Shown here one piece after another: positions 20,738 through 63,584 of a stretch of DNA of 64,000 nucleotides; positions within the stretch are counted from its first letter, which is position 1; every line of letters begins with the position of its first letter. The notes beneath the pieces are model-generated. The model was not told where the DNA came from, did not search any database, and worked only from the letters and a program-made list of their open reading frames with translations. Source of the DNA: Deroplatys truncata (taxonomy: Eukaryota > Arthropoda > Insecta > Mantodea > Mantidae); contig CM060989.1 in NCBI GenBank assembly GCA_030765065.1, positions 60,154,001 to 60,218,000 on the forward strand. The letters run 5' to 3'. A program made the position numbers and the translations under genes.

Positions 20738-20763
20738 ATTATATTCTGACTTGAACAGTTGCA

Positions 20764-20890
20764 ATGGCATTTGCACCAACCAGAGCTGTTTGTGTAGATG
20801 AAGCAATGGCCCTGGGGAACATACAAAGATTTGATTCATTAGCAGAAAAGGTGATTAAAATCGCAGATCAGTCAACTTTGAGTAAAGCAG
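20764..20890 (+). CDS. Nipped-B: Nipped-B/SCC2-like gene, exon a (first visible exon)
   Basis: Encodes 42 codons plus one base and ends at a perfect donor (AG|GTAAGT). The phrase GNIQRFDSLAEKVIKIAD matches in place and pattern the KRFTASIENILDNLED-type helix that opens the conserved part of NIPBL/Nipped-B. Nipped-B with its partner MAU2 loads cohesin onto chromatin and stimulates its ATPase. The start is uncertain: an in-frame TGA at 20,752-20,754 lies just upstream of ATG 20,764. Either this ATG is the start, with a 5' UTR acceptor at 20,737 (ATTGCAG), or an upstream exon joins at a weaker acceptor ending at 20,758 (GAACAG). Similarity to NIPBL appears to begin before the RF helix, which slightly favours an upstream exon, yet none is visible. 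The gene symbol names the family; this looks like a divergent member. Confidence 0.75.
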
Positions 20891-21078
20891 GTAAGTGGCA
20901 TAGTGCAGAAGTTCCTTTTATTATGAATGTGCTTTATAAAAATGGAGAGCAGATACTTCTTAAAATTTTTTCCTTGATTGCTTTAAAATCTTGTTAACTT
21001 AATGACAGACCTTTACTAAAATATGGTTGCTTTAACCTTCGTTATATTGCCTCTTGATTTGCATACAAATCTGGAAGA

Positions 21079-21233
21079 CATCTTAACTTTCTCTGCTATT
21101 TATTTATAGTAAGTAGAAAGTGTTGCATTTCACCCAAAAATATGATACCAGGATTCACCGGAAATACATATTTTGAGGCTCCCTAAAGAAAGCATTTTAG
21201 AAAAGGTGTTTGTTTCTGCATGTGCGCATGTAT
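21079..21233 (+). mobile_element. R1 5' fragment (copy 5)
   Basis: Only the first roughly 150 bases of R1 (AACTTTCTCTGC to the GTG-rich tract) are present. They directly precede another R1 5' end, so the two copies lie head to tail. Confidence 0.65.
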
Positions 21234-21437
21234 GATTTTTACTTTCTCTGCTGCTTACCTATGGTTAGTAGAGGAAGTATTGCATTCCACCCAAAAATTT
21301 GATACCAAGTTTTCCGTTCAAATCGACATATTGAGATCCCCTGAATCAAAAAAGTATTTTTAGAAATAGGTGTGTATGTGTGTCTGTGAACAGCATAACT
21401 AAAAATGAAAAGTTGGTTAAATACCATATTTGGTGTT

Positions 21438-22018
21438 TAAGTTTTGCAAGTTCTGTACTTGTTTCATAATGCAAAAGAAGATAGATTGAGCCATGATTGG
21501 GACCAGTCCAAGATCATGCAAACCCCTATTTAAAGAACTAATAATGTTCATAAAACCAACATCAATAATAATTCCCCTTTTATAAAAAATGAATAAATAC
21601 ACCAGTGTAACACAAAGCAAATAGTAATTTACATATTAATCAGCATAATACATCTTTGAGCCAAAAAAGTATATTGTACTCCGGGATAAAGATATACAAC
21701 AGCCTACCAGAATTTTTTAAAACAATACAGCAAAAAAGAAATTTCAAATACTTTTTAAAGGCATATCTAATCAACCACTGCTTCTACTCAATCCAAGATT
21801 TCCTAACTAACGAAAATAAATAATTAATTTCATGTGTATATATATCCAATCTTTGTATATCATACCTTTAATTTTTATTCTTTGTATTATACATATTTTA
21901 GTGATAATTTTGTAATAATTTGTAAATATTTTGTTAATTTTAGTTTGATGTGTCCAACATTGATTGTACTTTATGTACCTGACAATTTATTGGATCAATA
22001 AATTACTTGTTACTTACT
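21438..22018 (+). mobile_element. LINE-C 3' fragment
   Basis: In broken frames the end of a non-LTR retrotransposon ORF is visible: GIKIYNSLPEFFKTIQQKRN followed by FLKAYLINHCFYS (about 21,680-21,790). This is the usual C-terminus (G-x-x-x-YN-x-LP) of Jockey/CR1-type elements. A 3' UTR with tandem TA-rich sequence follows, ending near the ATTACTTGTTACTTACTTA tail. It is inserted in R1 copy 6. Confidence 0.65.
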
Positions 22019-22156
22019 TAGCATCCTCCAAGGATGTGCTCAAACCTTTTCAAGAAAATTCCCCTGTCCCAAACTATCTTTTCCATGGAAAAATTTTTGT
22101 TATTTTTGATTTTCTCGTAAAATGGCTAAAAGTTTTTATTAAAACACCATGTTTAA

Positions 22157-23162
22157 CCTCTTATAACCTGGTGTACCACATTTGATACAAAGTGTTTTAG
22201 GTTTTTAATGGCTTTTTCTATAATTCCATATTATACTAACCTTCAAAAATAAAATACAGGAATTAATAATTGTTTTATATTGTAATTCTTTTTTTCTCGA
22301 TAAAACTGTAGCATGCATATTGTTTTAAATAATAATAATAAGCAAAATCCATACAACTGCAGTCAAATGTAACCCTGTTGGCATCCAAGCGTGCCATCAC
22401 ACCATTTATTGTACTTGGGCCCTCCCTGTCCTTGGATTGTGAAGTGAACAGGATCAGCACCGATCCAGGAATAAGGATATTGTACCGACGCCCCAGGAGG
22501 GAGGGATAAGATGAAGGGAGACACCGGGTAGCTGGAACCAGGAGTGACTGCACAGCAGTCCCTACAGTTTCCAGATGGAGATGCTCCGGCAATTGGGTAG
22601 GCAGACTGGGACCCCGCCCCCCACCCAAGGGGCAGTCCTTATATCCCAGTAACCAGACCGAGGGATGGAGAAAGTTTACAGAGAGCATCCTTTTCCCCTG
22701 CCATGCTGCACTGAAGCACCATTGTTGACATTTGCAATCCTGAAACAGCCAAATGGGGTGAAGGATGAATGAAATGAAGGTACAGAAAATTTGGGGGATG
22801 AAAGAAACCACTCCATGATTCGCCTGACGACCTTAGAAAACCCTTGAAAAAACCCATGGGTCAGAGTGGGTGGTCACCGGGAATCGAACCTGGTACCTCC
22901 TGAATGCAGGCCATAGACATTACCACCTGAGTCATCCCACTTGGTTCCCCATCCTTTACCAAGGTACATTTAACTGCAGTCACTGGGACTCAATTTGCGA
23001 CATTTGGCTTTGAATGGAATGGCCAGTCAAATTTCAATTGCTTTAATGAACACAGCTATTCAAATTGCTTCTTTGGTGGTGGTGGTGAAAGGGATATGAA
23101 AGCCAGTTTAAGATTTAGAGGAGGAGCGGCATATGCAGCAAAAGAATTCCCTCAATAAAGGG
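22157..23162. mobile_element. piggyBac-like non-autonomous element at TTAA
   Basis: Both ends are flanked by TTAA (22,153-22,156 and 23,163-23,166), and R1 sequence continues on either side. The ends are loosely inverted: left CCTCTTATAACC, right (other strand) CCCTTTATTGAGG. TTAA duplication is the piggyBac signature. The interior includes a GC-richer block (22,340-22,640) and a SINE. A 178-codon minus ORF in it shows no transposase motif. Confidence 0.5.
22640..22950 (-). mobile_element. SINE-2, tRNA-derived, copy 1
   Basis: The minus strand reads GATGACTCAGGTGGTAATG (A-box like) and GGTACCAGGTTCGATTCCCGG (B-box like) at about 22,870-22,945, followed by a body with CCCATTTGGCTGTTTCAGG. A diverged copy lies at 50,745-51,015 (minus), and a related head at 26,940 (plus). 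Confidence 0.6.
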
Positions 23163-23553
23163 TTAAGACAAATAAAATGTATATCTTGAATTTGCTGGGA
23201 ATAGCCTGAGAAGTCGTTTTCATTCTGAATGAACTTTTTATAGCTTGTAAACCATAAGAGATGGACAAAAGCTTATTACATAAAAGATGTAGATCTCATT
23301 AAATCACACAGTTTATGTAAAATAAAATGTTTTGTGGCATTAACCACTTCCTGGATATTCTTTATTATAGGCTTGAATTAATAAATACTTAATAGTTTTT
23401 CAGCTGCAAAATCGCTATTCGTTTCTTTCTCATGGTCTTGCAAATAGAACAGAATTTCAAAGCCCTCCCATAGCAATCTGTTCTTAAAACATTTGACTCG
23501 TTTTTAGCTTACTGTATTCTCTTATTTCCCATGTACCTTCAAGGAAATATGTA

Positions 23554-24882
23554 CGAGTTGTGATCAAAAAGTTTCCGGAATAGCTTCACAACAATGCTGA
23601 CGCTGAGATTTCTTTAATTCTTACCCAGACTGTACATGCAGCATTTGTTCCCGATAAAAATGAGAGGTCACGTGACTTCCTGTGACCAAGCAGTGACGAG
23701 GTAGATGCTCTGAAGTGAACACATGTTTTGCATATGCTGCGATTTTTCCGCATAGCAAAAATGTCAGATTACGAAGAACAAAGAACGAACATCAAATTTT
23801 GCTTTAAACTCGGTAAAACTGCAACAGAAGCCTATGAAATGTTAAGAACAGCTTATGGGGAGGACGTTATAGGCAAAACTCAAACATTTGAGTGGTTTTC
23901 GAAATTTAAAAGTGGTGTGACATCGGTTAAAGATGCAGATTGTTCGGGGCGACCCTATTCCAGCAAAACTGATGAAAATATCAATCAGGTGAGGGAAATG
24001 GTCTTAAATGATAAGCACATTACAATAAGAGAACTTTCTGACTCATTAGGACTCTCCTTTGGAAGTGTTCAAAGCATTTTGAAAGACAATTTGGACATGA
24101 GAAGAATTGCCGCCAAGTTCGTGCCCCGCCTGCTTTCAAATGACCAAAAGGAAAGCCGTGTGATTGCGTACACAGATCTTAAAGAACAGCTACAAAATGA
24201 CCCACAGTTTATGGAGAAAATTATTACTGGTGATGAAACATGGATTTATGGGTTCGATCCAGAAACAAAGCAACAATCTTCACAATGAAAGAGTCCTTCA
24301 TCTCCATGCCCGAAAAAGGCCAGACAAGTTCGATCCAAAGTGAAGTCAATGATGATTGGTTTTTTGACATTAAAGGTATTGTACATAAGGAATTTGTGCC
24401 ACAGGGTCAAACAGTGAATCAAGTATTCTACAAACAAGTGCTGCAAAGATTAAGGGAGAATGTGCGACGCAAACGGAGAAATGGAGGAGTGGTGACTGGT
24501 TCCTGCATCATGACAATGTGCCCGCACACAAGGCCCTTTCTGTTCGCCAATTTTTGGATAAAAATAGGATGAATACTATTCCCCATTCTGCCTATTCTCC
24601 AGATTTGGCACCAGCAGACGTTTTTCTTTTCCCACAACATAAAATGCGGCTCCAAGGACACCGTTTTGAGGACATTAATGTCATCCATCGCGAATCGTAG
24701 AAGGCTCTGAACATGATGAAAGAAGAGGACTTTCAGAGGTGCTTCCAGCAGTGGCAGAAGCGCTGGGACAAGTGTATCAACTCCCAAGGAGACTACTTCG
24801 AGGGTAACAGTGCAGATTAGACAAAACAAACTGTTGTGTAGTATTTATGACGTCATTCCGGAAACTTTTGGATCACACCTCG
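23554..24882 (+). mobile_element. mariner element 1, inactive
   Basis: The 1,329-bp element has TA on both sides (23,552-53 and 24,883-84). Inverted ends are CGAGTTGTGATCAAAAAGTT at the left and, on the other strand, CGAGGTGTGATCCAAAAGTT at the right. It interrupts R1 copy 6. Confidence 0.9.
23761..24820 (+). pseudogene. mariner transposase pseudogene (element 1)
   Basis: From ATG 23,761 the N-terminal HTH pair runs for about 175 codons (RTNIKFCFKLGKTATEAYEM, then SGRPYSSKTDENI, then VPRLLSNDQK) to the first catalytic Asp in GDETWIYG. A TGA at 24,286 replaces the Trp codon expected after QSSQ, and frameshifts follow near 24,360 and 24,480. The second Asp (WFLHHDNVPAH) and the third (YSPDLAPADVFLF, the mariner D34D) are still readable, then RWDKCINSQGDYFE closes the protein at 24,820. 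All three catalytic Asp codons survive, but the nonsense and frameshift changes kill the gene. Confidence 0.9.
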
Positions 24883-25209
24883 TATTAAAACTAATTTTGC
24901 AAATGTTAATCTTGATTAACATGAAGTAGATGGAAGAATAAGCTTTTGTAAAAATGGTTTTTGAAGGATGTCTAGAGAAAGTCATGTAAATGTAGCTTCA
25001 CAAATATCGGTTTGAATACCGTCCCAAAGATGCCATTGTATACATTGCAGACTTTTGAAAACAGAATCCAACATTACTGTAAACCCAAAATCACAAAGGT
25101 TTCCACATAGGTGGTTTCATAAAAACATCTAAAGCATACCACCTCAATATATACAAATGAAATGGTGTATTTTGACCCAAGACTATACAAAGCATTGAAA
25201 TTGTTTCAG

Positions 25210-25400
25210 GCACTGATATTGGTGTTCTTTTGAATATACCTCATTTGAATATAGAGCTGCAGAATTTAAGTAACGAAGCAGCTAAATGCAGGTTGCTGGG
25301 AGTTATGCATTTACTATCCCTTGAGATATTACAAGCACTATTGAAGACTTTGGAAGGCATAATTCAGTCTGCATCAAGAATAGTATTGCCATCAGGCGCT
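25210..25400 (+). CDS. Nipped-B: Nipped-B/SCC2-like gene, exon b
   Basis: 191 bases between TTGTTTCAG and GTAAGT. It completes the split Gly codon from exon a and ends in phase 0. The encoded helices (GVLLNIPHLNIELQNL, EAAKCRLLGVMHLLSLEI, LKTLEGIIQSASRI) align with the NIPBL segment around SESAKIKAMGIMDKL and NILEKNIQDGSKL. This is the first helical layer of the hook-shaped HEAT-repeat body. Intron a-b is 4.3 kb and full of mobile elements. Matching phases on both sides support the exon strongly. Confidence 0.85.
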
Positions 25401-25678
25401 GTAAGTAACTGTTGGATCTTATTGTGCATTGCAATTAAATGGAGGTTTTACTTCCTCTGCAGAGTAGGAAATTAATAGGTATATTTATGTTAATCTGTGG
25501 AACATTTCTCCTCAAAGCTGTGTGGTAAAATGAAAATTCTCTTAACTCATTAAAAATCCAAGCTCAAATTTGGTTCCCTCTGCAGAAAATGTTCATGTAG
25601 CCCATACCTGAGTTTAGCTCAGGGACATATTTCTTACAATTTCAATGCACTTTCATGGCAATAATTCGGTTTTGGTAC

Positions 25679-26103
25679 AGTAAGTAGGGGAAGTATTGCA
25701 TTCCACCCAAGAATTTGATACCGAGATTTCACTGGAAATACATGTTTTGAGTCCTCTGAATCCAAAAAGCACTTTTAGAAAAAGGTGTCTGTGAACAGCA
25801 AGCATAACTCAAAAACGAAAAGTCGGATAAATACCAAACTTGGTATTTAGGTTCATTATCTTTCAAAGATGCGACACAAAGGTTTTCAAGAAAATCCCCC
25901 CACCCCAGACTACCCTTTACATAGGGCATTTTTCAAAAATTTTTATTTTCTCAAAAATGGCTCTAATGATTTTGATTAAAATATCATATATTTAAGATAT
26001 TTTCATGACAAATAAAATGTATATCTTGAATTTTCTAGGAATCTCCCCAAAAGTCATTTTCTTTCTGAATGGCTTTTGCATACGTGGTAAACCATAAGAG
26101 TGC
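25679..26103 (+). mobile_element. R1 copy 7 (both ends incomplete)
   Basis: Starts at AGTAAGTAGGGGAAGTATTG, so the first roughly 20 bases are missing, and stops after GTAAACCATAAGAG where a mariner fragment begins. The phrase GTGTCTGTGAACAGCA lacks the long GT tract of other copies. Confidence 0.7.
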
Positions 26104-26109
26104 TAAAAT

Positions 26110-26490
26110 TTCCTGGGTAGACTTCTTTGTTTACCATCTGGCCACTGGTACAAACTTCTGATGGGCAATCTTGATGTGGTCATCATTTGAAGATGCAGAA
26201 GGTCGTCCAGGCCTGCGATCCTCGCTGACTAACATTCTGCCATGTTTCAAAATGCTTAAATCACTCATAGCGCTGCATGCAACTCATTGTTGCAAACTTT
26301 CACACACACTCATTCTTCGAGCTCTTTCATTGTCAGTTTGTCACTAATCAGATGAACAGCTTGTGCACTTGCTTACTTCAGCAGCTGTAGCTTGGCAACT
26401 AACGGTCATAGTGAAACAAGGCAATTGGCACAGCATGCTCCGCGTGCAGGTTGATGCGCTATTTCAAAAGTTTTATCTTTTTTTGAACAC
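26110..26490 (-). mobile_element. mariner fragment (HTH region), reverse strand
   Basis: On the minus strand, broken frames give SEDRRPGRPSASSNDDHIK and KFVPVARW, the linker between the two HTH motifs of mariner transposases. The right end (GAAGGTGTGTTCAAAAAAAG on the minus strand) resembles a mariner terminus. The catalytic domain is absent. Confidence 0.6.
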
Positions 26491-26934
26491 ACCTTCTATG
26501 TGATGCATAGGACTTCGCATTTTTTTCTAGCTCTATGAATAACTTCAAGCTCATATTTTTTTCTATCTCTATCTGCTGTGTATCAATGATAGAATTGAAA
26601 AAACCCCTAAAAACTTTATATAAGCCAGATATATCATATATGATATAACCCCTAAAACCTCCATGTAAACCCCTCAAAATGAAAACAAAACTTGATGTCT
26701 TGAAGATTTGTGTTACTCTGATCTTTAATAACATGCATTTATCCATAGAAGGAAGTTATAGATGTCTAATGTCATTTTAGTTTGCCCAAAATGCCCCTTC
26801 CCCAATTTTTTTATTCTTTTTTGTTGCAAATGTATTATATTTTGACTCAGAGGAACATTAAGCACACAAATATAAATACAACTATCTGAATTTAATCTCA
26901 GGTCTCTTAGAGGATACTGAATCACATGTGAAAC

Positions 26935-27035
26935 AAGCAGATAGTACCCATAGTAACTCAGGTGGTAAAGACTTCACATGAGAGAGCTGAAGGGCCATGG
27001 TTTGAGCCTCATCTGTGATTTATCAGAATGTCTTC
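26935..27035 (+). mobile_element. tRNA-like SINE head
   Basis: GTAACTCAGGTGGTAAAG (A-box like) and ATGGTTTGAGCCTCATC (B-box like) are spaced as in tRNA-derived SINEs and resemble SINE-2. The body is short or lost. Confidence 0.45.
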
Positions 27036-27063
27036 TGATACTGTATATACTGAAATTATATTT

Positions 27064-27830
27064 GAATTAATTTGAAGATTAAGAAGCTAGTAACAGTGAT
27101 GTAACATATTTAAAATAAAGAAGTTGTTACACTACATCAATTAAAACGTACTTACTTTGAACGTGTTTCGGGAGAACGGTTTGCTCCCATCGTTGGCTTG
27201 TTTCCAACTGATTTTGCTGGTTAATGTTCAGGGGATGTGTGTGGTTAGTGGTGTTCTCTAGTGCCAGGTTGATGAACCTCTAAAGGCTGCTGATTTATCC
27301 ATCTCTTTTTGATAAATGCATCTCATATACTCTTTAAGTCTTATTTCAAGATTTCTTTTGGTTCTTCCTATGTATACAGGTTTCAGTCATTACAAACTAT
27401 TTGATATATACCAGCTGATTTATCATTGGGGATAGAATCTTTTGTCTGTTGCATAGTAGTTTCTGTATATTGTGGTCATTCTGTGGAGTCAGGGTGATGT
27501 ATTTCTTGTAAATCAGCAGTAGCACATCATTTCTGGTCTTCAAACTATGAAACCACTCCAAGTATATTGGACATCTGGGAAAAAGTACTTATCATCAAAC
27601 ACAGGAATCACCTAATGAATTTCAAACTACCGCCACCCAGCAGCCTTTGGAGGTACATCAACCCGGCACCAGAGAAGACCACTAACCACACACATCCCCC
27701 GAACAGTAACCAGCAAAATCAGTTGGAAACAAGCTGACGATGGGAGCAAGCCGTTCTCCCAAAATGTGTTTAAAGTACGTACCTTTTAGTGATGTAGTGT
27801 AACAACCTCCGACTCTCTTTATTATAAATA
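27064..27830. mobile_element. Penelope-like element A with inverted arms
   Basis: The left arm reads on the minus strand and the right arm on the plus strand, meeting near 27,535. The minus arm encodes GIYQIVCND, a damaged NLY.YIG, then RTKRNLEIRLKEY: the GIY-YIG nuclease domain that characterises the C-terminus of Penelope-like elements. The plus arm keeps only the end of that domain (LDIWEKVLIIKHRNHLMNF). Both arms end in the same terminal unit (AACAACCTC...CTTTATT), each with a hammerhead-like core that is mutated here (CCAACGA on the left; AAAA instead of GAAA on the right). Inverted partial copies are common in Penelope-like elements. Confidence 0.7.
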
Positions 27831-29515
27831 CTTGAATTATTTTCTATACTGGATATACTGAAATTATACTGGGATTAGTGATTACATACTGGAAAAATTG
27901 GATGAAATATTCATATAGCATTGATTTGTTGCAGATTTCAAGTAATTGGTTCTTGGAAAATCTTGTCAATAAAATAAGTATTTTTTTAATGTTATTGTTT
28001 TACGTGATGTCTATTGTGTCATAATTTTTAATCTTATGTAAAAATGACTCAAAAATTTGAATAATCTTTCACCCCTAACATTATTTTACAGGCTTTACAA
28101 CATTTCCGAAATTTTGAAGATTATTGTGGGGAAGGGTGTGGGGAGGCGAAGATAAGAAATACAACGTTCGCTGATATTTCATTTCTATATCAGTGAATTT
28201 TTTTGTCCATTGTTATGACCAAAAAGTTTTATGAAATTACAGTTCTAAGAAGTAATGGGAGAAATCAGCATAAAAATATTATAGATCATTGTACAATAAT
28301 TTAATGAGTACAGAGAGGAAATTTAATTAAATCGTCATTCAAGATTTAGAGAGTCACCTATTCAACTTCGCATATGGCAGCTAGTAATAAACACAGCTTC
28401 ATATTACGCTGTGGAAACAAATAAAACAGTAAAATGCTAAAAGCTAGCCACAACAGCATTTGAATACTGCTGCATTTTTACTGCAATATGACTTGATGCT
28501 AAAACTTACACTGGAATTTTAAACTTTCAAGGCAGTAGACACTCTATATATCTTTTTAAAAGTGGAACCTACTTTTCAATCTCTATGTTACATATGGCTA
28601 AAGCCACTTGTACACGATCAGATTTTTGTCAAATTCAATACTGCACAAGAATTTTCAAGAGTTGTCACAACTTCATAAGTTTTCTGGTCAAATTGCTTCC
28701 AATGTTTGTACAGTCTTTGAAGGTCTTGAAACAAAGAAGGACATGCTCTAAACGGTCAAAGATTTCACAATGATTTGATGGCTTTGGTCAATGAAATACA
28801 AGTATTTACAGTGCATCACGAAATCTGCAACATGGGCAAAGGCGAAAAGTAAACAAAAATGGCTACCCGGCAAAGGTATGTCATATGCAGACTGATTAGG
28901 TTATACATAAGCTGGCCATATCTGTACATTGAGAGTTCAGTGGATTACCACAAGATGGAGGAGATGAAAGCGATTATGAAGAAACAATTGCCAGGCAGAT
29001 CTCTGAACTAAATATACATTAATACAATGTTATATAGTGTGGTTAACCTATCAGTTAGTGTTATTTTCATTGCATTCGACACTCGTAATGTGATTTCATG
29101 GATATAATACTGAAAGTGCTACACAATATTGGTAAAGAACAATATTTCATTGTGAATTGTTATACTGTGATGCAAATACTAAATTACTTTGCACATGATA
29201 AATCATCAATGTGTTAAGGGTTTCAGTTTGGCGAAGAGACAACTTGTGAATACACATTTTTGACATTGTCAAGTCTTGTCAGTCTTGTCAAGTCTTTTCC
29301 AATCTTGTCACATATTGAAAAATATTTCACAATTTTTCTTGTAAACTCTTGAATTGAAAAAAAAGTTTGATCGTGTATAAGGGGCTTAATATTGCATTAA
29401 TAAGATCAATTTTCAGTGATGCTATGGTTTTCCAAAAAAAAAATGGCACTTTGCTAAGCAGCTTTACTCACAAAGAGGAAGTTGTTGATTAATATTTAAT
29501 TTCAAAATCTTACAG
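27831..29515. other. intron sequence between exons b and c
   Basis: AT-rich and very CpG-poor. Short related hexamers (CTTGTCA, GTCAAGTCTT) repeat at about 29,265-29,310. No gene or element boundary is supported. Confidence 0.4.
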
Positions 29516-29720
29516 GTTAACACAAATGAAGCAAATATAGCAATAATCACAATTGCACTTAATGCTTCCCTAGCAGCACTTCATGTTATGATTTCACAAA
29601 ATTCACAACCATGTTATACAGATGAAACAATGGAAGTAACAGCAGTGTTTATTAGATACTGCTTAGAAAATCTTGCACAGGCTTCATGTAATTCAGCCGG
29701 CAGCACTAAATATCAGAAAG
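29516..29720 (+). CDS. Nipped-B: Nipped-B/SCC2-like gene, exon c
   Basis: 205 bases, acceptor CTTACAG, donor AG|GTAAGT, phase 0 in and 1 out. It encodes two long helices (IAIITIALNASLAALHVMIS and EVTAVFIRYCLENLAQA) aligned with the NIPBL pair that precedes the strongly conserved YDPVYR...HGGG segment. That segment is not found: here the exon closes with a polar tail (SCNSAGSTKYQK). Either the loop was lost or replaced, or a small exon was missed; phases c to d are compatible with direct joining. This is one of the main signs of divergence from ordinary Nipped-B. Confidence 0.8.
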
Positions 29721-29824
29721 GTAAGTACTTCTTCATAGTCACAGTTTAGGAAATACAAAATGCAGCTTCCATTTTTCTGATGATTTTTTTTTTTCCATAT
29801 TGGTTAAATCTACATGAAAGGAAT

Positions 29825-30455
29825 ACGTTAAGACAATGCCTGGGTTTCCAAGAAAAGAATTTAAGGAAAAGTGGATGGAGTTACAGTATGCAAACTATAT
29901 TAGAAAAAATGGGCTGGGCGATATCTGGAGAAGGAGGGAAAATAATGTAAATGGGTTTTGGAAAGAGTTAGGAAGAGATTTGAAGATATTAAAACACAAG
30001 AGTTGTTTAGGAACAAGGGAGTAAAAGATCACTAGAATTGTATGTATAAATAAAAAGTACATGGGAAAGAGAAGGATATGTGGACAAATTAAATAAAGCA
30101 CAAAAAGAGAGTATTGCTTGGGTTCGAGCGGGCATGTGGAGGCTAAAAGGGATGAGAAAAGGTTTCCAATAGAACCTGTGTTCAATATGTGGAGGGAAGG
30201 AAGATTTGGAACATTTAGTTTTTTAATATAAAGGGATAAAGCTTTGAAGGAAAGAGTGTATAAGTGAGAAATTGCTTAAATTAGACAGAATGGTAGCCTT
30301 AATTAAACTTTTTAGCAAAGATAGTAAGAAGGTAGGCGAGTACTTAGTCAAAGTTAAGAAGAAATGGTTGTGGTCTATAAAAAGAGAAGTAAGTGAGAAG
30401 ACTACAATGTGTTGCGAAAACAAAGGTTAATTAGACTACTTCAAACATTGTGTGT
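29825..30455 (+). mobile_element. LINE-B 3' fragment, copy 1
   Basis: Broken frames give LRQCLGFQEKNLRKSGW, TWEREGYVDKLNKAQKESIA, then CSICGGKEDLEHL, the start of a CX2CX7H zinc knuckle, and a lysine-rich tail (KVKKKWLWSIKREV). It matches the copies at 32,764 and 48,130. An (ATT)n run follows its end. Confidence 0.7.
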
Positions 30456-30461
30456 GTTTAA

Positions 30462-30465
30462 AACA

Positions 30466-30548
<83 letters not shown>

Positions 30549-30575
30549 GTGATTATTATTATCATCATCATCATC
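30462..30575 (+). repeat. (ATT)n with (ATC)n microsatellite
   Basis: ATT triplets, then ATCATCATCATC. They directly follow the LINE-B 3' end, so the retrotransposon tail may have seeded the run. Confidence 0.9.
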
Positions 30576-30684
30576 ATTATTCATGAGCAATGCTATGATG
30601 AGTGTTATATTAATGGTATTATTAATATTATTATCATTATTAATATTATAATTATTACCGTTAGCAGTAATAGTAGTAGTGGTA

Positions 30685-31616
30685 CAGGGTGAGCCAAATG
30701 ACTCCAAACCGCCTGCGCAGTGTTTTTCCTGTCTGCATCCTCGGCGCTCATTGCCGTCTGCTGCTATCATAGAAAGGTGCCGATGAAACCATACAACATT
30801 TTTAAAACTACTTTTAAAGGCTTTACTTACCAACTTTATGAAAGGAAATGCTGAAACTGGCCACCATCGTTGTTCATACATTTTTGGCACCTCTTTAAGA
30901 AACTATCCATCATGGAATTTTTGGGGTAAATTTTCCAAACAATGATCGATGTCGTCTAATGTTTCTTTGTTAAGAACCGAATGCCATCTTTTATATTTCT
31001 TAGCCTGAACACTTCCTGTGGCCTGAAATTTACTGTAAAGTTCATGGATTGTTGTACAGCCTGGAACTTTTACACTTGGAAATCTTTCTGCAAATCATAC
31101 TTTCACTTGGCGAGCTGGCCGAGATAACACATACGAATCATAAATAAATACACGCTGTGTGTATAATATAAACTTTGTTTATAGCAGCAGTGCGCTATTA
31201 TGTTTTTATCATATTTCCACACGCCCAGTGGAAAAATACTGTGCAGCCGGTAATATTGTTCATAAAGTACCCCTCCGGGGTAATTTAAAACGTAAAGTGT
31301 ACAAGACAAACCCACACACCCTGGAAGAATTAAAACAAAATATCCGCTAGGAAATTTCTCAATGTGAAGTTCGACGAGTGATGGATAGTTTCCCAAAGAG
31401 GTGCCAAAAATGTATGGACAACGACGGTGGCCAGTTTCAGCATCTCCTTTCATAAAGTTGGTAAGTAAAGCCTTTAAAAGTAATTTTAAAAATGTTGTAT
31501 GGTTTCATCCGCGCCTTTCTATGATAGTGGCAGACGGCAACGAGCGCCAAGGATGCAGACAGGAAAAACACTGCACAGGCGGTTCAGAATCTTTTGGCTC
31601 ACTCTGTAGTTGTAGT
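30685..31616. mobile_element. inverted-arm DUF4817-type transposon, copy 1
   Basis: TA at both ends (30,683-84; 31,617-18); inverted ends CAGGGTGAGCCAAATGACTC and CAGAGTGAGCCAAAAG. Arms of roughly 190 bases are inverted copies, each including the transposase C-terminus (KRCQKCM.NDGGQFQH) on opposite strands. The right arm (+) reads LKRKVYKTNPHTLEELKQNI near 31,280. The left arm (-) also keeps an N-terminal HTH piece (VPGCTTIHELYSKFQATGSV near 31,050) of the DUF4817-type IS630-Tc1-mariner group. The catalytic centre is missing. The family name is from memory of its typical wording. Confidence 0.65.
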
Positions 31617-32750
31617 ATTAGATACAAGAAAAACCTGGGTTTTGAGTATCGCTAAGTTAACAGCCTGGGCTGATGATAGCCATATTCTGTGTATGGTGAC
31701 TTGGCATAGATAAATATCATTGGTTCCTTAAAATTTGAAAAATCAAAAAGATGCGTTTACTGTCCATTCTACAAGATTGTGAAAAGAGATTAAAGGTTAA
31801 AATAAATTTCATGCAAGCCAAACCTTGTTCATAGGTGCATTTGCTGTTATTGAGAACCTAACATAACAAAAAAGGAAAAATTGTTAAAAGAAACAACCAT
31901 GCTCAGTACAATATAATAGAAGTTAATTTTCAAAATATTTGCATAACGTCTACAGATGTTTGACAAATTCAAAAAGGTTTTCAGAGAATACAACACCTAA
32001 CTGGCTCTATTTAAGTATACCATAAAAAAATGTTCTTGACTCAAGCACTAAAGACATCATTCCTTCAAATAAAAAAAAATCCAGCATTTACCACGCCCCA
32101 ATTAACCATTATAATAAAGGGGATGGGGTTGACAGTTAACTGAAAATAACAGATAGTCTGTCTTATTTACGAGGACTATTTTGTTTTCAACCTCTGCTGG
32201 GGCATAACAGAAATGCAAATGTGAATTACAAAATGATTTATTACCAGGAGTCAAGTACAGTCACAAATAAATAAATAAAATCTGAATATACTATCCCAGC
32301 ATCTTGGTTAGTACACCGGGACATACATTCAAACTTTACTTTTATTCTCACAAGTACATTTACATTTTAGATTACATCAATTTTTTTCAGATAAAATAAC
32401 TACAAATTACACAATGTCTACAAAATAATAATATAATAATAAATAAAAGAAAGAAAGAAAAATAGAAATTATTAGATTAGAGTAAAGGCGTAAAAAAAAA
32501 TTAATTACAATTCTAAGTTCTATATTTATCTACACTTGCTGAAAACCAGCAAACTTAGTAACTGGTAACCAGCTACTGTCTACTCCTATTTAACTATATT
32601 CACTGGAAACCAGGAAAAATACACTGGTAGCTATCTATTTGTAACATTCCATTGTTATTATAGTAATTATTTGATTTATAGTAGCTCAATATTTTATTTA
32701 ATTCATTTATATCTTTATTTATACATTTGTGTTGATTTGTTAATTTATTT
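31617..32750. other. intron sequence, unassigned
   Basis: No exon found. An imperfect (GAAA)n run lies at 32,446-32,465. The phrases GAAAACCAGCAAAC... and GGAAACCAGGAAAA near 32,540-32,620 repeat loosely. Nothing else is supported. Confidence 0.35.
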
Positions 32751-32763
32751 ACCTTATAACATT

Positions 32764-33807: not shown

Positions 33808-33820
33808 ACCTTATAACATT

Positions 33821-34600
33821 TTATTTAATTTCAGTATTAATTTACTGTCATCTCCTTTTTAATTTTGTTTATATATCAATTTTATAATTTTATCACTATA
33901 TATTAAACCTTTACCTCTTTTAACCAAACACTAAACCTTCTTTCTTCTATCACTAAATATCTACTCACTTTACCCCACAACATTTCATTTCCCTCACATC
34001 CTCCATTTTATTCTAACACCAACTCCACTTCCAACCTACATAAACTCCAAATTCCCCTCCTATTAATAACAATAACAAATTCACATATCCATGCATCTAA
34101 CATTACCATAACTCCATTCACTATCCCTCCCAAACCATATTAAACTACTCCTCCAATGGCAAACCTGCTAGCTCCTCCTTCAAAGATGGTGAAACTGCTG
34201 CTACTCCTCCAATAATGGTAAACCTGCACCCCAACACCACCATCATCTTCTCTCCTTTCCTCTTCTTCCTCCGTCCTCATTCTATAATCACCACATTTCT
34301 CTCCTTCCTGTCGTCTTAATTAAAATCTTCTCTCTACCCATTCCTCCTTCTCCTCCTCCCCCTCTTCATTCTCTGTCAATGTCAATTGTAAACTATCCAT
34401 TTCTTCACTTATGCTTCTATCTTCTCCCGTATCTAAATTTTGATTTATTATTCTAATCCTCTCAGATCTTCTAATTTCCTCTCAGTAATTGTTCTCTTCT
34501 TACTTTTGGTAATATATCTTTTTCCCACACTGTTCTACTTACATAATTGTGTTTGCTGTATGAATTATTTTTGTTAGAAATTCAATAAACTGCATGTTTT
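33821..34600 (-). repeat. G-poor tract, probably the N-terminal half of a LINE-B-like ORF in reverse
   Basis: The plus strand is almost free of G over several hundred bases, so the minus strand is C-poor, the same skew as LINE-B coding DNA. Minus-strand reading gives acidic and charged runs such as SISEEMDSLQLTLTENEEGE. There is no conserved domain, so the link to LINE-B rests on composition. Confidence 0.35.
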
Positions 34601-35827: not shown

Positions 35828-36060
35828 TTCTAGACACGAGAAATGATTTTGAGTCCCAAAACCAAGATAATGGAATAGAGAGGAGTATACCTGTAATTTG
35901 CCAGAAGATATATGGCTGCATTGGCTTGCTGTCAGAATTGGTCTGTGCTCAGGAGTTGACAGATACAGTAATACTTCGCATTGTATGTATTGGATTAAGC
36001 GCATTGTTTACAGACACAATGGAAGATCTTAATTTTATTGGTATGAAACTAGTAATCGAG
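35828..36060 (+). CDS. Nipped-B: Nipped-B/SCC2-like gene, exon d
   Basis: 233 bases, acceptor GTTTTCAG, donor AG|GTAAGT, phase 1 in and 0 out. The key block LLSELVCAQELTDTVILRI aligns with the LSELLEIQLLTDTTIL block of NIPBL, one of its best-kept stretches; FTDTMEDLNFIGMKLVIE follows it as FVENVSELQL..KLV does there. The first 25 residues (DTRNDFESQNQDNGIERS) are polar and unlike the canonical basic linker. Intron c-d (6.1 kb) is the largest in the window. Confidence 0.9.
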
Positions 36061-39443: not shown

Positions 39444-39671
39444 ATATTTATCAAATATAAACGTCAAAGAACTGAAGTTTTAAACGATGCTTTGTCATCA
39501 CTGATGAAACTTTCAGAGGACAGGAACAAAATGAAAACATATAGACTGAATACTGGAGAAAATACACAGATATTTACGGCTTTCTTTGTGCAGTTGATGC
39601 ACGCTGCATTAGACTTTCCTACAAAGAGAATATCTCATCCCAAACAGGAAATAATGCAAAATCAAAATCAG
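39444..39671 (+). CDS. Nipped-B: Nipped-B/SCC2-like gene, exon e
   Basis: 228 bases, acceptor GTGTTGCAG, donor CAG|GTGAAA, phase 0 in and out. IFIKYKRQRTEVLNDALSSL continues the helix begun in exon d. KTYRLNTG...IFTAFFVQLMHA aligns with the RNFRLNSS...MVTALVLQLIQC part of NIPBL. The donor is not the strong GTAAGT type; an alternative GTGAAT about 30 bases later (39,702) would break the phase with exon f, so 39,671 is preferred. Confidence 0.85.
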
Positions 39672-44072: not shown

Positions 44073-44282
44073 ATCTTTGATAATATGCTGGAAGCATATA
44101 CAACTGTCTACCAAATGGCATCCGACTTTCTTAAGAAACTTGTGAAAAGATGCTGCAGTAACACAGCTAAAGCAGGTCTCAAAGCTATGTTTAAGAATTT
44201 TGTAGATGATCTTTTACTTATGTTCAACAAACCAGAGTGGTCAGGAGCAGATCTAACTTTGGAAATACTGTGTAAAGTTCTA
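44073..44282 (+). CDS. Nipped-B: Nipped-B/SCC2-like gene, exon f
   Basis: 210 bases, acceptor TTTTTACAG, donor TA|GTAAGT, phase 0 on both sides. MLEAYTTVYQMASDFLKKLV plus MFKNFVDDLLLMFNKPEWSG is the most recognisable segment of the gene: NIPBL has ..FLSIFLKKCG.. and LFENFVQDLLSTVNKPEWPA here. The NKPEW motif and following ADLTLEIL helix are intact. This exon anchors the family identification. Confidence 0.95.
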
Positions 44283-47818: not shown

Positions 47819-47998
47819 ATATGCAATTTAGCAAGTCACAATAATGATTTATCAGCACGATTGTCATGTATGGATTATCTTGGAGTAATATTAGCCAGGA
47901 TGACAGGAGCAATAGTAACATCTCAGAGTAAGCTGAATTCTGTGGATGATTTTGTTCAGCAACACTGCAGCCAGGAAAGTTATGTACAAACAGAACTG
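47819..47998 (+). CDS. Nipped-B: Nipped-B/SCC2-like gene, exon g
   Basis: 180 bases, acceptor TGTTTCAG, donor TG|GTAAGC, phase 0 on both sides. NNDLSARLSCMDYLGVILAR matches the NIPBL stretch ..ALRVASLDYLGTVAARL.., a HEAT-type helix pair. The following linker (SKLNSVDDFVQQHC) is shorter and less charged than in known family members. Intron f-g is 3.5 kb. Confidence 0.9.
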
Positions 47999-52087: not shown

Positions 52088-52280
52088 GAAAAAATGGCAA
52101 GAGATCTCAACAGTGATGTACGTAGAATAATTTATTCACAAGATATTATTTTGAATTACTTAATTATGAAGAGCCATAATGACGCTGCAATGATTTATGC
52201 CAGCAATTTTATTATGTCCCACTGGTATCATGAAACATTTGTGCAGAAGAACACACCCAGTACTCCAAAATGTTCTAAAG
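52088..52280 (+). CDS. Nipped-B: Nipped-B/SCC2-like gene, exon h
   Basis: 193 bases, acceptor ACTCTTAG, donor AG|GTAGGA, phase 0 in and 1 out. ILNYLIMKSHNDAAMIYASN then FIMSHWYHETFVQK fits the NIPBL sequence ..LLDYLDEN...SRKFYIAQWFRD.., so the aromatic SHWY corresponds to the AQWF helix. The linker to exon i is short (NTPSTPKCSK), whereas canonical proteins carry a longer charged insertion here. The frame continues into the intron to 52,540, which could allow an alternative end, but the phase match with exon i supports splicing at 52,280. Confidence 0.88.
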
Positions 52281-53423: not shown

Positions 53424-53438
53424 GTGCTGCCAATACCT

Positions 53439-54977: not shown

Positions 54978-55017
<40 letters not shown>

Positions 55018-56267: not shown

Positions 56268-57565
56268 CAAGGGTGGTCTGAAAAGTTTCCAACCTCAACA
56301 TGAAGATGGCAGCACTCATGAATAAAAGTTAGTGAATTTTGTTGTTCATCTGTTGACAGTTACTCACCAAAGTTTCAGCCATTTTGGACGCTCAGTTGTT
56401 ATGTAACAGTCGTTTGAGTGAGGTGATGTGAGTGTTTTTATGAAAATGGACAAAATCGAGTATCGAGCTGTCATTAAATATTTGTTTTTGAAAGGCAGTA
56501 CACCTACGCAAATCAAAGATGAGTTGGATTCTGTGTATGGGGACTCCGCACCATCATTTACCACAGTGAAATTTTGGGCAGCTGAATTTAAACATGGCCG
56601 TAAGAGCTTGGGAGACGATGAACGTTCGGGACATCCAAAAATTGCAACTACCGATGAAAACATTGCCAAAATTCACCAAATGGTGCTAGACGACCGCTGA
56701 ATTAAAGTGAGAGAGATAGCAGAGGCTATGAACATGTCAAAAGAACGTGTTTGTCACATATTAAATCAACATTTAGACATGAGAAAGCTGTCTGCGCGTT
56801 GGGTGCTGCGTTTGCTCACGTTTGACCAAAAACATGTTTGAATGAACATTTCCAATGCTCTGTTGGCGCAGTTTAGGCACAATAAATGTGAGTTTTGGCG
56901 CCGATTAATTACTGTAGATGAAACTTGGATACACCATTATACGCCCGAAACAAAAATACAGTCCAAACAGTGGACTGCAAAGGGGGAACCGGCTCCAAAA
57001 AAAGCAAAAACTGTTTTTTCGGCTGGGAAAGTGATGGCGACTGTTTTTTGGGATAGTAATGGAGTTATTTTAATCAATTATCTTCAAAAAGGAAAACCAA
57101 TACAGGAGCATACTACGCATCATTACTTGACAAGCTGAAGGCAGAACTTGCGGAAAAACAGTCACATTTGCAGAAAAAGAAAATCCTGTTTCACCAAGAC
57201 AATGCACCGGCTCACACCTCAGCAGTTGCAATGGCGAAAATCCACGAATTACGGTTTGAACTGCTTGACCATCTGCCTTACTCACCAGATCTAGCCCCAA
57301 GCGACTTCTTTTTGTTCCCTCATCTGAAAATTGCGCTCGGAAGACAGAGATTTTCGTCAAATGAAGAGGCAATCACCTTCGTGAACAATTATTTTGCAGA
57401 AAAAAATGCAGAGTACTATTTGGACGGGTTACAGAGATGGGAGCATCGCTGGGAGAAGTGTGTAGAGTTACAAGAGACTATGTTGAAAAATAATAATAAA
57501 AAAAAAAAATTCTGAAAAAATGTCTTCTATCTTTATTAGGTCGGAAACTTTTCAGACCACCCCCG
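56268..57565 (+). mobile_element. mariner element 4, inactive
   Basis: TA flanks (56,266-67; 57,566-67). Ends CAAGGGTGGTCTGAAAAGTT and, on the other strand, CGGGGGTGGTCTGAAAAGTT. The 1,298-bp length is typical. Confidence 0.9.
56440..57493 (+). pseudogene. mariner transposase pseudogene (element 4)
   Basis: The best-preserved transposase here. ATG 56,440 or 56,446 opens the HTH region (GSTPTQIKDELDSVYGDSAP, KFWAAEFKHG, IHQMVLDDR). Stops interrupt at 56,698 and 56,839 (TGA in place of CGA-type Arg codons). The catalytic frame has VDETWIHHYTPETK (first Asp), a frameshift near 57,105, ILFHQDNAPAHTS (second) and LPYSPDLAPSDFFLFPHLK (third, D34D). It ends RWEKCVELQ..YVEK with TAA at 57,491. The stops look like C-to-T decay. 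Confidence 0.9.
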
Positions 57566-57773: not shown

Positions 57774-58024
57774 ATGTAAACAATTTGTCAAAAGCTGAGC
57801 ATAGAGAAGAGAAAAGTAGTGCAAAAGTTGACTCAGAACTTTTGAAATTGCAAAGGTTACAGGAATGGGCTTTCCTAAAGAGGATTAAATGCCTTCTAGA
57901 ACTGTGGGAACCTGGGCATGTGATTCCTGATGCCTACATTGACTACAGCGGCATAAATCTACTATCTGAATATACAGCTTGTAACAGGAGTTTTCTCAAA
58001 AGTTTTGACAGATATGTGCAGCAG
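57774..58024 (+). CDS. Nipped-B: Nipped-B/SCC2-like gene, exon i
   Basis: 251 bases, acceptor TTTATTTACAG, donor AG|GTAAGT, phase 1 in and 0 out. A charged start (NNLSKAEHREEKSSAKVDSE) leads to LQEWAFLKRIKCLLELW, then YIDYSGINLLSEYTACNRSF and LKSFDRYVQQ. NIPBL has AENRKKFLRSII and VDYDDACLIVRYLASMRPFAQSFD in the same order, so DYSGINLLSEYTACNRSFLKSFD is a clear counterpart. The C-terminal helix continues into exon j. Confidence 0.93.
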
Positions 58025-58103
58025 GTAAGTTCACTGCCATGGAACCAGTTCCACTTAATTTCTCAGAATGTTGCTTTTGTTTTGTGCATGGAAATACATT
58101 TTA

Positions 58104-59778
58104 CAGTAGACCCTTGCTAATTTGAAATCGGATAAACCAAAAACTTGGTTAATCCATAGTAGCTGCTTGGTCCCTGCCGAATTACATGGAAAAATCTACC
58201 ACTTAAACTGAATTTCAGATAATTTGTACTATGAACTAAAATTTGGTCCCCTCGTTACATATTCCATATGTTATTCTTCGTTTAAATCGAATGTGTATTG
58301 TGCGTGCACTACAATATTTTCCATTACACATTTCACAAAATTTTTCTCAATTTTCTTTTTCATTGTCCAGACCCATGCTTCAAAAGAAAGCTCAGGAAAT
58401 CCCCAAGAAAGAAGGAATTTTGGGTTTATGTCTTCTGAGGGATGGCTATGGCATTTTCAGAAGAGGCATAAAGAACCTCAAACCATTAGTGATTGGAAAA
58501 TACAAATATCCATGTTGTTTTAAAAAGGCCAACCTATTCAATCTGCCAAGTCAGTACAAGAATAACAATAAAGTTTGAGTGATCAAAACTCTTGAAGATT
58601 CAACAACAAATGGCTGCGAGTAAAAGGAACATTTTGCTAACTTTGGACCACTGCTTGGCATATCAGTTCGATGACCTGGAACTTCCGAACATAGAAGTTG
58701 TCTTCTTACTAGCTAACACTACAAGCCATCTGCAACCATTGGATCAAGGAATAATCGCCTCAATGAAGTGTAATTACAAACGCCGACTGGTTAAGGCTGC
58801 CATCAGTGCAATAGAACTACAAGAAATAGTTCCACATTGGAATGTACTGCAAGCTATCTGCAACATATCTGCTGCTTGGGATGAAGTTACAACACACACC
58901 ATAACTAACTGTTTTAAGAAGGCCTGGACAGCAACTGATAACACTGCTGAAACTGAACAGGTAACCGATGATCCACATCTGAGCTTATAATGTGGATACA
59001 ATTGGAATTCTGATATGCTCTTCTACACACTTACACCCGGTTGGTGCCCTTTTGTACCGTCATTATGGAAAAATGGACGTAGGTAGACAACATCTGTGCT
59101 GCTGAAGAACCAGTCATTTGCTGATGATGCAGAAGAGAATGATAATTCTTTACTGTCATCTTCTGAGGAGGAACATGAAGATACGACACTGCGACCCCAC
59201 GCTGAAGTTACAGCTGCAATTTCTGTTCTCAAGAGATTTACTGCCACTTCGGATGTCTCCATGGCATTTCGGGATGTCCTGGATGAGTTATCTTCAGAGA
59301 GTCTCATAATATTATGACCAACGGTCCGCCAACAACAATTAATGATTTTTTTCAAATTATAGAACTAAAATGTGTAATGGAAAGAGTTTTAAATAAAACA
59401 TGTGTTCCAATTAAAACTTAGTGTTAAAAGTATGTATATTTAAAGTGTTTCTTAAGGTTATTGTTTTATTATACGACTCACTAATTCAATGAGTACAATA
59501 TTTTTCCAAATAGTACTGTTTTAAAAACAATTATGACAAGCATTTGACAGTATACTTTCTCAATTAAACAAATGCCACATATACTGTATACAATACTTAT
59601 TTTTACTTTTTCTCTTTCGTTGGTACGCGTAGCAAGAGAGAAAGTAAACTCAACAGCCGTATTCTACCATTTCAGATAACATGGGACTATTTTTACAAAA
59701 CCTCGTTAATTCAAGCTTCGTTAAACTGAATTGGCTATTTTTCGGTCCCTTGGAATTCGGTTAAACTAGGGTCTACTG
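58104..59778 (+). mobile_element. Tigger/pogo-like DNA transposon, inactive
   Basis: TA on both sides (58,102-03; 59,779-80). Ends CAGTAGACCCTTGCTAATTT and, on the other strand, CAGTAGACCCTAGTTTAACC. Length 1,675 bp. A palindromic ACTTTTTCTCTTTCG...AGCAAGAGAGAAAGT near 59,605-59,648 inside it resembles the R1 terminus. Confidence 0.88.
58376..59352 (+). pseudogene. Tigger/jerky-type transposase pseudogene
   Basis: First frame: QKKAQEIPKKEGILGLC.. and IKNLKPLVIGKYKYPCCF (58,376-58,580), degenerate N-terminal/core pieces. Second frame from about 58,592: ILLTLDHCLAYQFDD, then LPNIEVVFLLANTTSHLQPL and DQGIIASMKCNYKRRLV, the second half of the pogo-type DDE domain (the NTTS.LQPLDQG motif is diagnostic). 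The Asp expected in LLVDN is still Asp (LDH). After a stop at 58,988 an acidic tail (SFADDAEENDN, SSEEEHED) continues, closing with a TTINDFFQ-like phrase near 59,335. The N-terminal CENPB-type HTH domain is missing. Confidence 0.85.
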
Positions 59779-59989
59779 TATTCATATTTTATTAGCAGTT
59801 TCTTTATAATAAAATGACAATACTACTGATCTATTGGTAATGTGAGATTTCTCTTAAGAAACTAGACAAATGAAACCAATTCTGTAAATATTACTCAAAA
59901 AATTAAATACTAGGTTCCAAAACTTTCAGGCTAATGCGTAAAAGTTGATGCATTTAAATTATCTCCTCTTAAGTAAAATGGTGTCAGTT

Positions 59990-60782: not shown

Positions 60783-60965
60783 TATTTAGTAAGTAGCATG
60801 TTTTGTGTAATGCTTCTCCTTTCATCAGTTACTCATCATTCCATCAAAATATGGACCCTGTTTTCATTATCCATGCATATTGGAATATGCCCTGTGTATT
60901 ATTACCTTGAAAACTTCTTAGTTTTCATGCTCCTAATCTAAACCATACAATGTTCTCTCTTTACA

Positions 60966-61860
60966 TTTTTACTTTCTCTACTACGTATAGTAAGTAGGGG
61001 AAGTATTGCATTCCACCCAAAAATTCGATACCGAGATTTCACCGGAAATACATGTTTTGAGACCTCCTGAATCCAAAAAAAGCATTTTTGGAAACATGTC
61101 CGTGTGTGTGTCTGTGTGTCTGTGTGTGTGTGTGTCTGTGTGTGTGTCTGTGTGTGTGTGAACAGCATAACTCAAAAACGAACAGTCGGATAAACACCAA
61201 ACTTGGTATTTAGGTTCAGTATCTTCCAGAGATGCGACACGAAGGTTTTCAAGAAAATCCCCCCACCCCAGACTACCCTTTACATGGAAGATTTTTCGAA
61301 AATTTTAATTTTCTCAAAAATGGCTCTAACGATTTTGTTTAAAATATCATATGTTTAAGATAATGCCATGAGAAATGAAATGTATATCTCGAATTTTCTG
61401 GGAATGTCTCCAAAAGTATTCTTCATTGTGAACGACTTTTGCATAACTGGTAAACCATAAGAGATAGACAAAATTTTACTACACAAAAAATGTTGATCTC
61501 GTTAAAATACACAACTTATGTTATATACATTTCTTTTGTTGAGTGAACCGTTTTCGAGATATTGCTTGTTATTCCCTTAAATTTTCCAATACTTATACTT
61601 TTTCTCAAATTCGTTATTCATTTTTTTATGTCCTGGACTTGCAAAGAGAATGGAATTCGACACATAGCAACCAGCGTTAAAATATTTGACCATCGCTTAA
61701 AAGCTACCATATTCCCCTTGCATCTACAAGAAAATTAGCAATAAGATTGACATCTCGATATCTCGATTAACATAAAGCATATGGAGAATAGGCGTTTGTA
61801 AAAATAGATTGTACAAGAGTAGAGAAAGTCATGTGAGTGTAACACATCAGATTTTTTTAC
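60966..61860 (+). mobile_element. R1 copy 10 (full length, best reference copy)
   Basis: ACTTTCTCTACT at 60,971-60,982 is matched perfectly by AGTAGAGAAAGT at 61,818-61,829. Outside the 3' repeat lies ATGTG-AGTGTAA-CACAT, a small hairpin, then CAGATTTTTTT. A compound GT/CT tract spans 61,100-61,160. This copy and copy 9 are close, suggesting recent spread. Confidence 0.88.
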
Positions 61861-62120
61861 ATATGTTTATTTCCACTCCACTATGGGAAACAGCATCAGG
61901 TTGAAAGATAATATTTAAGAAACAGAAGAAAAACAAATTGTGTTATGGCTTATTTTGGTCCCAAGAATTCATGCAGAAATATTTATTTTAAAAAAATTAA
62001 ACACCTTTAGCCTTCCTCCACAATATCTGTAAATTAGCTAAACATGTACAAAAAATTTGATAAATACTATAATAAACTAATAAACATCATGAAAGTAGAG
62101 CAGAAAGCTGCCTAGAAGTA

Positions 62121-62921
62121 ATGGGTGAGACAAAAAACTATGAACCAGCTGCGCAGTGTTTTTTCATCTGCGTCCTTGGCACTCGCTGCTGTCTGCTGCT
62201 ATCATAGAAAGGTGCGGATGAAACCATACAACATTTTTAAAACTACTTTTAAAGGCTTTGCTTACCAACTTTATGAAAGGAGATACTGAAGCTGGCCACC
62301 GTTGTCATCCATACATTTTTGGCACCTCTTTAGGAAACTATTCATCACTCGCCGTAGTTCACGTTGAGAAATGTTGGCAATTTCCTGGTGGATATTTTGT
62401 TTTAATTCTTCCAGGGTGTGTGGGTTTGTCTTGCATACTGTGTTTTTAAGTTACACCAGAGATAGAAATCACCAGGGGTTAGGTTGGGGGACCGAGGGGG
62501 CCACAAATCTCTACTAATAATTCTGTCCTCAAACACACTTATTATTGGCCGTATAAGCAGTTGCAGAGTCTTGTTGAAAAAAGGCAAAATCACGCTCCCT
62601 GTCTGTTAATTCTTTAAAATAAGGGGACAAAATTATATTCACATATGTACGAGCTTCATCTGTTGACTCGAAAAAATTGGTGAGTGATGTATAGTTTCCT
62701 AAAGAGGTGCCAAAAATGTATGGACGACAGTGACCAGTTTCAGCATCTCCTTTCATAAAGTTGGTAAGTAAAGCCTTTAAAAGTAGTTTTAAAAATGTTG
62801 TATGCTTTCATCTGCAGTTTCTATGATAGCGGCAGATGGCAACAAGCGCCGAGGATGCAGACAGGAAAAACACTGCGCAGGTGGTTCGTAGTAGATTTTT
62901 GGCTCTCCCTGTACCTGTCCA
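62121..62921 (-). mobile_element. inverted-arm DUF4817-type transposon, copy 2
   Basis: TA flanks (62,119-20; 62,922-23). The arms are inverted as in the copy at 30,685 (TGTTTTTTCATCTGCGTCCTT versus GAGGATGCAGACAGGAAAAAC). The minus strand keeps more of the catalytic domain: FAFFQQDSATAYTANN (second Asp region) near 62,570, then ISRDLWPPRSPNLTPGDFYL (third acidic-residue region) near 62,490, then QTHTPWKN. Frames are broken and the N-terminal half is missing. Confidence 0.75.
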
Positions 62922-63338
62922 TAGACTACATTATTTGAAAAAAGTCCTTTCTATTCAGGAGTCAAAATTTACAATAACTGAAAAATTAAAGTATATTTCT
63001 TAATGCAGTAAAAGGGATTTTGGTAGAAAAGGCAGCATAACCGACAAGTCACCAGTTTATTGAGCATTTGCTCAAACTATGAAAAGTATATGATGAATAA
63101 AGTATTTAATAGTTCTGTAGGAGAGTTGGAGTCTCTTTCACTAAGATCAAAAACAATTATGTAATATTAATAACTTTCTTAATTCCAAATGTTTATATAC
63201 TTCACATACCAGCTTTTACTTAAAGCAAATTCATATTTGAAAAGATGTTTAGATGATGCATGGTTTTTAACTGACCCTTTTTGTCTGTTTTTATACTCAG
63301 AATTGATACATGTACATTTGTTTTTTATCTCCCCACAG
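62922..63338. other. intron sequence before exon j
   Basis: No element seen. The reading frame of exon j is open back to 63,189, but CTCCCCACAG at 63,329-63,338 is a strong acceptor. Confidence 0.5.
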
Positions 63339-63584
63339 ATGTTACTGGCTCTGACAGAGAGTTCAATTCTGATGCGTTCCAAAGCAGTTAAAAACTTGAT
63401 AAAAATTATTGAGGTTGATCCATCGATACTTGGTAGGAGTGACATGCAGAAAGCAATGCAGCGTTGTTTTTTGGACAAAGCTATCCCAGTAAGGGAAGCT
63501 GCGATTGATCTGATCGGAAAATATATTCTTCTGCTACCCAAGTTCATTGAGCAGTATTATAATTTGCTGTTATCCAGGATTTTG
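63339..63584 (+). CDS. Nipped-B: Nipped-B/SCC2-like gene, exon j (last in window)
   Basis: 246 bases (82 codons), acceptor CTCCCCACAG, donor TG|GTATGT, phase 0 on both sides. It encodes two HEAT repeats with the best conservation of the gene: MRSKAVKNLIKIIEVDPSIL, RSDMQKAMQRCFLDKAIPVR, EAAIDLIGKYILLLPKFIEQ. NIPBL has VRTKA.KCL, VDPSILAR.DMQ and SVREAAVELLGRFVL here. VDPSIL and VREAA are family hallmarks. The next expected segment (a TGISVRKRVIKILRDI-type repeat) must lie beyond the right edge. Confidence 0.97.

Follow-up and report, generated by a model that had tools for sequence, protein, structure and literature searches.

Is the cohesin-loader-like gene in a 64,000-nucleotide stretch of the Deroplatys truncata genome the ordinary Nipped-B of this mantis, or a second loader whose protein begins differently? 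The stretch, called the window here, corresponds to positions 60154001-60218000 of contig CM060989.1 (C15) in a 4.29 Gb assembly. Kleisins, SA subunits and SMC1 have been duplicated and specialised in animals, and the cohesin loader is usually regarded as one general factor. Based on sequence comparison, it is probable that the C15 gene is an intact and selected paralog of the Nipped-B/NIPBL/SCC2 family that arose by duplication at the DNA level, with a protein that likely starts at the HEAT body and is predicted to act independently of MAU2.

The C15 locus encodes a HEAT protein of the Nipped-B/NIPBL/SCC2 family. Recomputation of splice sites, phases and reading frames yielded ten plus-strand exons with compatible phases between the ATG at 20764 and position 63584 (Table 1), whose coding parts (127+191+205+233+228+210+180+193+251+246) sum to 2064 nt or 688 codons, in agreement with the first-pass annotation of the window. 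The gene continues beyond the window: sequence up to C15:60308000 adds 12 exons, and the gene as traced comprises 22 exons, 4278 nt and 1426 codons, is stop-free, uses GT-AG introns throughout and has compatible phases at every junction, the trace ending at C15:60305188, short of the stop codon and the final exons. Nine joined window exons (623 amino acids; exon 2 and two exon 4 residues omitted) matched human NIPBL in the Protein Data Bank (PDB) with an E-value of 1.6e-66, aligning query residues 55-623 collinearly to residues 142-695 of chain 7w1m_E; weaker PDB matches were obtained for 5t8v (Chaetomium) and for chains of Mis4 and of budding-yeast Scc2. Taken by themselves, exons 1-3 give a collinear but weak alignment from residue 28 of the human NIPBL chain (E 0.031 at the level of the sequence, 0.1 at that of the stretch), and the human NIPBL match of exons 10-22 has an E-value of 2e-184. 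The sole Pfam family found in the product is Cohesin_HEAT (PF12765), with 37 bits against a cut-off of 21, so that the initial identification of a cohesin-loader HEAT protein is confirmed.

The similarity to the family is patchy, as first described: with a provisional human NIPBL query, only exons 4, 6, 7 and 10 of the ten window exons were matched at E 0.05 or better. For exon 2, a mariner-like frame at 23756-23988 obtained the top splice-signal score among six candidates and was rejected because the stretch at 25210-25400 aligns with the provisional human NIPBL sequence (35% identity over 43 residues, E 0.007). No recognisable counterpart of the human YDPVYR/HGGG segment is present at the junction of exons 3 and 4. 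Since single exons are short, a Pfam scan of stop-masked single plus-strand frames, which partially covered window positions 1-34000 (all three frames of 1-14999 and two of three for 15000-20738 and for 19001-34000), returned no Nipped-B domain.

Before the rest of the genome was searched, the natural reading of such a gene was that of the sole Nipped-B in a fast-evolving lineage. The first-pass annotation had instead favoured a paralog and had proposed a search for a second Nipped-B. A search of the whole 4.29 Gb with the Nipped-B_C domain (PF12830), which would overlook a copy that lacks this domain or has strongly diverged, scored 14 candidates and retained six matches, all above the curated cut-off and confined to two loci. 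Three of them lie in the C15 gene (C15:60279615-60290559), where the stop within two of the matches is due to intron read-through outside the modelled exons 18 and 20. The other locus, C16:67647950-67654597 on another contig, belongs to a second and better conserved Nipped-B, for which 17 exons (numbered 5-21 by correspondence with the C15 gene) and 1184 codons were traced, all stop-free. Exons 1-4 and the N-terminus of this copy were not found in the stretch examined, which begins at C16:67500001, and presumably lie further upstream. With an intact, better conserved copy on C16, the paralog claim stands, and the chance that the C15 gene is the only Nipped-B of this genome is negligible; at a length of 707 Mb, the C16 contig is very unlikely to be a contaminant from another animal.

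The two copies share their gene structure. All 17 comparable exons have the same splice phase, and nine of them (10, 11, 12, 14, 15, 16, 17, 18 and 20) also the same length; some few C16 boundaries were picked among candidates with phase in mind. A retrocopy origin of the C15 gene was rejected on the grounds that introns are conserved between the copies. In a three-way alignment with human NIPBL, whose sequence was in part provisional, 508 of 1070 ungapped columns are identical between C15 and C16 (47%), 377 between C15 and human (35%) and 600 between C16 and human (56%). Among the sites at which two sequences agree against the third, 180 unite C15 with C16, 49 unite C15 with human and 272 unite C16 with human; all three differ at 241. 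A C15 gene older than the divergence from the vertebrates would be expected to share roughly as many such sites with human as with C16, so the excess of 180 over 49 indicates that the mantis copies are sisters and that their duplication postdates this divergence; an earlier duplication was rejected for the same reason. The copies are unequally conserved, C15 alone deviating at 272 sites and C16 alone at 49, which on these counts marks C15 as the faster-evolving copy and C16 as the better conserved one. The divergence is also uneven along the gene (compared over C15:60154001-60308000 and C16:67510385-67665602): exons 5-9 are 33-39% identical between the copies, against 41-76% for exons 10-20 with the maximum in exon 20, so that drift has been strongest on the N-terminal side of the HEAT body compared. 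The proposed history is thus a DNA-level duplication, introns included, that would have taken place after the split from vertebrates and left the copies on separate contigs.

Rapid protein change, visible in the lower identity of C15 than of C16 to human, could also be expected of a decaying pseudogene that is still open by chance. Over 1121 codons, however, crude site counting between the copies gave a pN of 0.33 and a pS of 0.74, the latter saturated, and protein change has therefore been constrained. Despite saturated synonymous sites, the 22 exons are stop-free and their splice sites intact; the probability that intron-like stretches of equal lengths would all be open by chance is about 10^-14 over the ten exons of the window and falls to about 10^-30 when all 22 are counted, values that are somewhat optimistic given that the exons had been chosen as open. 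Decay is accordingly a very improbable explanation, and the comparison of the copies indicates that the C15 gene is intact and under selection.

The start of the protein is less firmly placed. The first-pass annotation had let the gene begin at 20738, and this position holds as the acceptor of exon 1 but not as the coding start: an in-frame TGA (20752-20754) lies between the acceptor and the ATG at 20764, so translation would start at the latter. In a matrix built on 38 acceptors of the C15 and C16 genes, the acceptor at 20738 scores 8.9, like a typical true acceptor, a value reached by 1.3% of the 3676 AG dinucleotides of the window. The ATG is embedded in GCAATGG, with G at -3 and at +4, and the human counterpart of the exon 1 start lies near the beginning of the solved HEAT chain. 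Taken together, the acceptor, the TGA and the ATG support, but do not prove, the shortened N-terminus that had been suggested, and the C15 protein most likely lacks the long disordered N-terminal region and starts at the HEAT body; the in-frame TGA and the strong acceptor argue that the MAU2-binding end is absent as well. Consistent with the earlier remark that the N-terminal region is not visible upstream, a provisional human N-terminal query gave no match better than E 1.4 across the 20 kb before the window and its first 20.7 kb, and hence none was recognised within 40 kb. Across the entire window, the best E-value for the N-terminal piece of this human sequence was 3.5; the middle piece, exon 2 aside, gave minus-strand matches at E 0.14 and 0.41.

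Several observations weigh against a protein that starts at the HEAT body. Introns reach about 12 kb in the C15 gene and about 30 kb in the C16 copy, and N-terminal exons may therefore lie more than 40 kb upstream or be too diverged to be recognised; similarity searches do not readily detect the N-terminal region in this family. In such a fast-evolving paralog with a full N-terminus, distant coding exons would be spliced to exon 1 through the acceptor at 20759, whose AG (20757-20758) permits in-frame joining. This acceptor, however, scores 3.2, above only two of the 38 acceptors of both genes and far below that at 20738, and the ATG at 20764 has G at both -3 and +4, the N-terminal matches within 40 kb are poor and a same-strand open frame intervenes upstream. 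A full N-terminus is thus unlikely, yet it is the most credible of the competing explanations. The intervening frame had been noted before as a neighbouring gene on the same strand, and the plus-strand frame is indeed there: it spans 456 codons from stop to stop (446 from the first ATG), occupies window positions 1-469, extends upstream to about C15:60153100 and ends at 466. It resembles leucine-rich repeat (LRR) proteins, with all LRR matches below the curated cut-offs (LRR_4, E 5e-5).

The HEAT body, which grips the cohesin ATPase heads and DNA, is retained in the C15 gene. A study on Mis4 names R487 and R874 as DNA contacts and highlights K873 and K877 beside them (PMC7507959). R487 aligns with an arginine in C15, and positions 873, 874 and 877 correspond to K, R and S of the C15 motif VRKRVIS and to K, R and K of human VRKRVIK when counted without gaps past the end of the nine-exon PDB alignment. 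The serine at the K877 position counts against a functional loader. So does the statement in the same study that Mis4 and its Ssl3/MAU2 partner are essential for chromosomal loading, with Ssl3/MAU2 acting as the chromatin adaptor in vivo (PMC7507959); a loader without this partner may consequently be weak or mistargeted. On the other hand, Mis4-N191, which is devoid of the Ssl3-binding N-terminus, is described there as competent for cohesin loading in vitro (PMC7507959), and N-terminally truncated human NIPBL, according to a review, does not pair with MAU2 while loading persists at lower occupancy (PMC11592926). Together with the C15 residues, these truncations lead us to expect a working, MAU2-free activator, possibly weaker or differently targeted. 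The C15 body would bind cohesin and DNA and, unaided by MAU2 as chromatin adaptor, stimulate the cohesin ATPase in loading or loop extrusion. Lacking this adaptor, it would be targeted unlike the conventional loader, or be used in particular cells or on particular cohesin. A loader tuned to one cohesin is conceivable in view of the Caenorhabditis elegans SCC-2, whose action on REC-8 cohesin differs from that on COH-3/4 cohesin (PMC10497282). A natural division of labour, in which a conventional Nipped-B works with MAU2 and a dedicated loader or cohesin activator works without it for a particular cohesin, e.g. one with a meiotic kleisin, or for a particular cell type, is a tentative and rather doubtful extension, and the germline role suggested for the C15 copy is a guess.

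Compared with known systems, the C15 gene shares with NIPBL, Nipped-B, SCC2 and Mis4 the collinear HEAT body, the Cohesin_HEAT and Nipped-B_C domains and the basic VRKR motif, and it differs in its lower identity to human NIPBL and its predicted start. Two Nipbl genes per animal are also found in zebrafish, where nipbla and nipblb are 70% identical and both carry the SCC4-binding motif (PMC3201921); the mantis copies, in contrast, share 47% identity where they were compared, and C15 seemingly lacks the N-terminus. Mis4-N191 likewise consists of an SCC2 body without the SCC4-binding end, but is an engineered truncation rather than a natural gene, and truncated human NIPBL is the product of a disease allele of a single gene, whereas C15 is a separate gene. 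No arthropod loader paralog of this kind was encountered among literature titles, abstract openings and selected passages on the loader, a coverage that leaves most subscription papers outside. Should the C15 protein indeed be a natural paralog without the MAU2-binding end, the purpose of MAU2 binding and of the disordered N-terminus could be probed in vivo, and the C15/C16 pair would allow asking whether cohesin loading and its later activation are separable into two proteins.

Table 1. Exons of the Nipped-B-like gene on contig C15, numbered from the first letter of the window (exons 11-22 lie beyond its end).
Feature	Position	Strand	Remarks
Exon 1	20738..20890, coding 20764-20890	+	untranslated from acceptor 20738; TGA 20752-20754; ATG 20764
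Exon 1 donor	CAG/GTAAGT	+	exon 1 aligns weakly with the start of human NIPBL chain 7w1m_E
Exon 2	25210..25400	+	phase 1 in, 0 out; acceptor TGTTTCAG, donor GCT/GTAAGT
Exon 3	29516..29720	+	
Exon 4	35828..36060	+	LTDT block; 35834 is an in-phase alternative acceptor
Exon 5	39444..39671	+	TYRLN block; counterpart C16:67510385-67510633
Exon 6	44073..44282	+	NKPEW block
Exon 7	47819..47998	+	MDYLG block
Exon 8	52088..52280	+	
Exon 9	57774..58024	+	YIDY..SFDRY block
Exon 10	63339..63584	+	VDPSIL and VREAA blocks; Pfam Cohesin_HEAT
Exon 11	74545-74671	+	
Exon 12	86617-86786	+	
Exon 13	93378-93641	+	
Exon 14	98341-98575	+	
Exon 15	106809-106963	+	
Exon 16	111328-111525	+	
Exon 17	122542-122608	+	
Exon 18	125556-125746	+	
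Exon 19	128675-128983	+	
Exon 20	136455-136601	+	
Exon 21	145205-145398	+	
Exon 22	151032-151188	+	

Neither Rfam nor a tRNA scan detected anything in the window. The introns contain several frames that resemble transposable elements. Mariner-like transposase frames, broken over several reading frames, are located at 23719-24817, 37747-38763, 44467-45400 and 56422-57515; a Transposase_1 match below its cut-off falls at about 24360-24479 in the first of them, and the other three are presumed to be mariner-like from their motifs. Intron 9 harbours a DDE transposase frame at 58583-58990, which is presumably Tigger/pogo-like, judging by a motif. Finally, a repeated open frame occurs at 32760-33371, with relatives near 29818 on the plus strand and at 48372-48983 on the minus strand, and judging by another motif these frames presumably resemble one family of non-LTR (long terminal repeat) retroelements.

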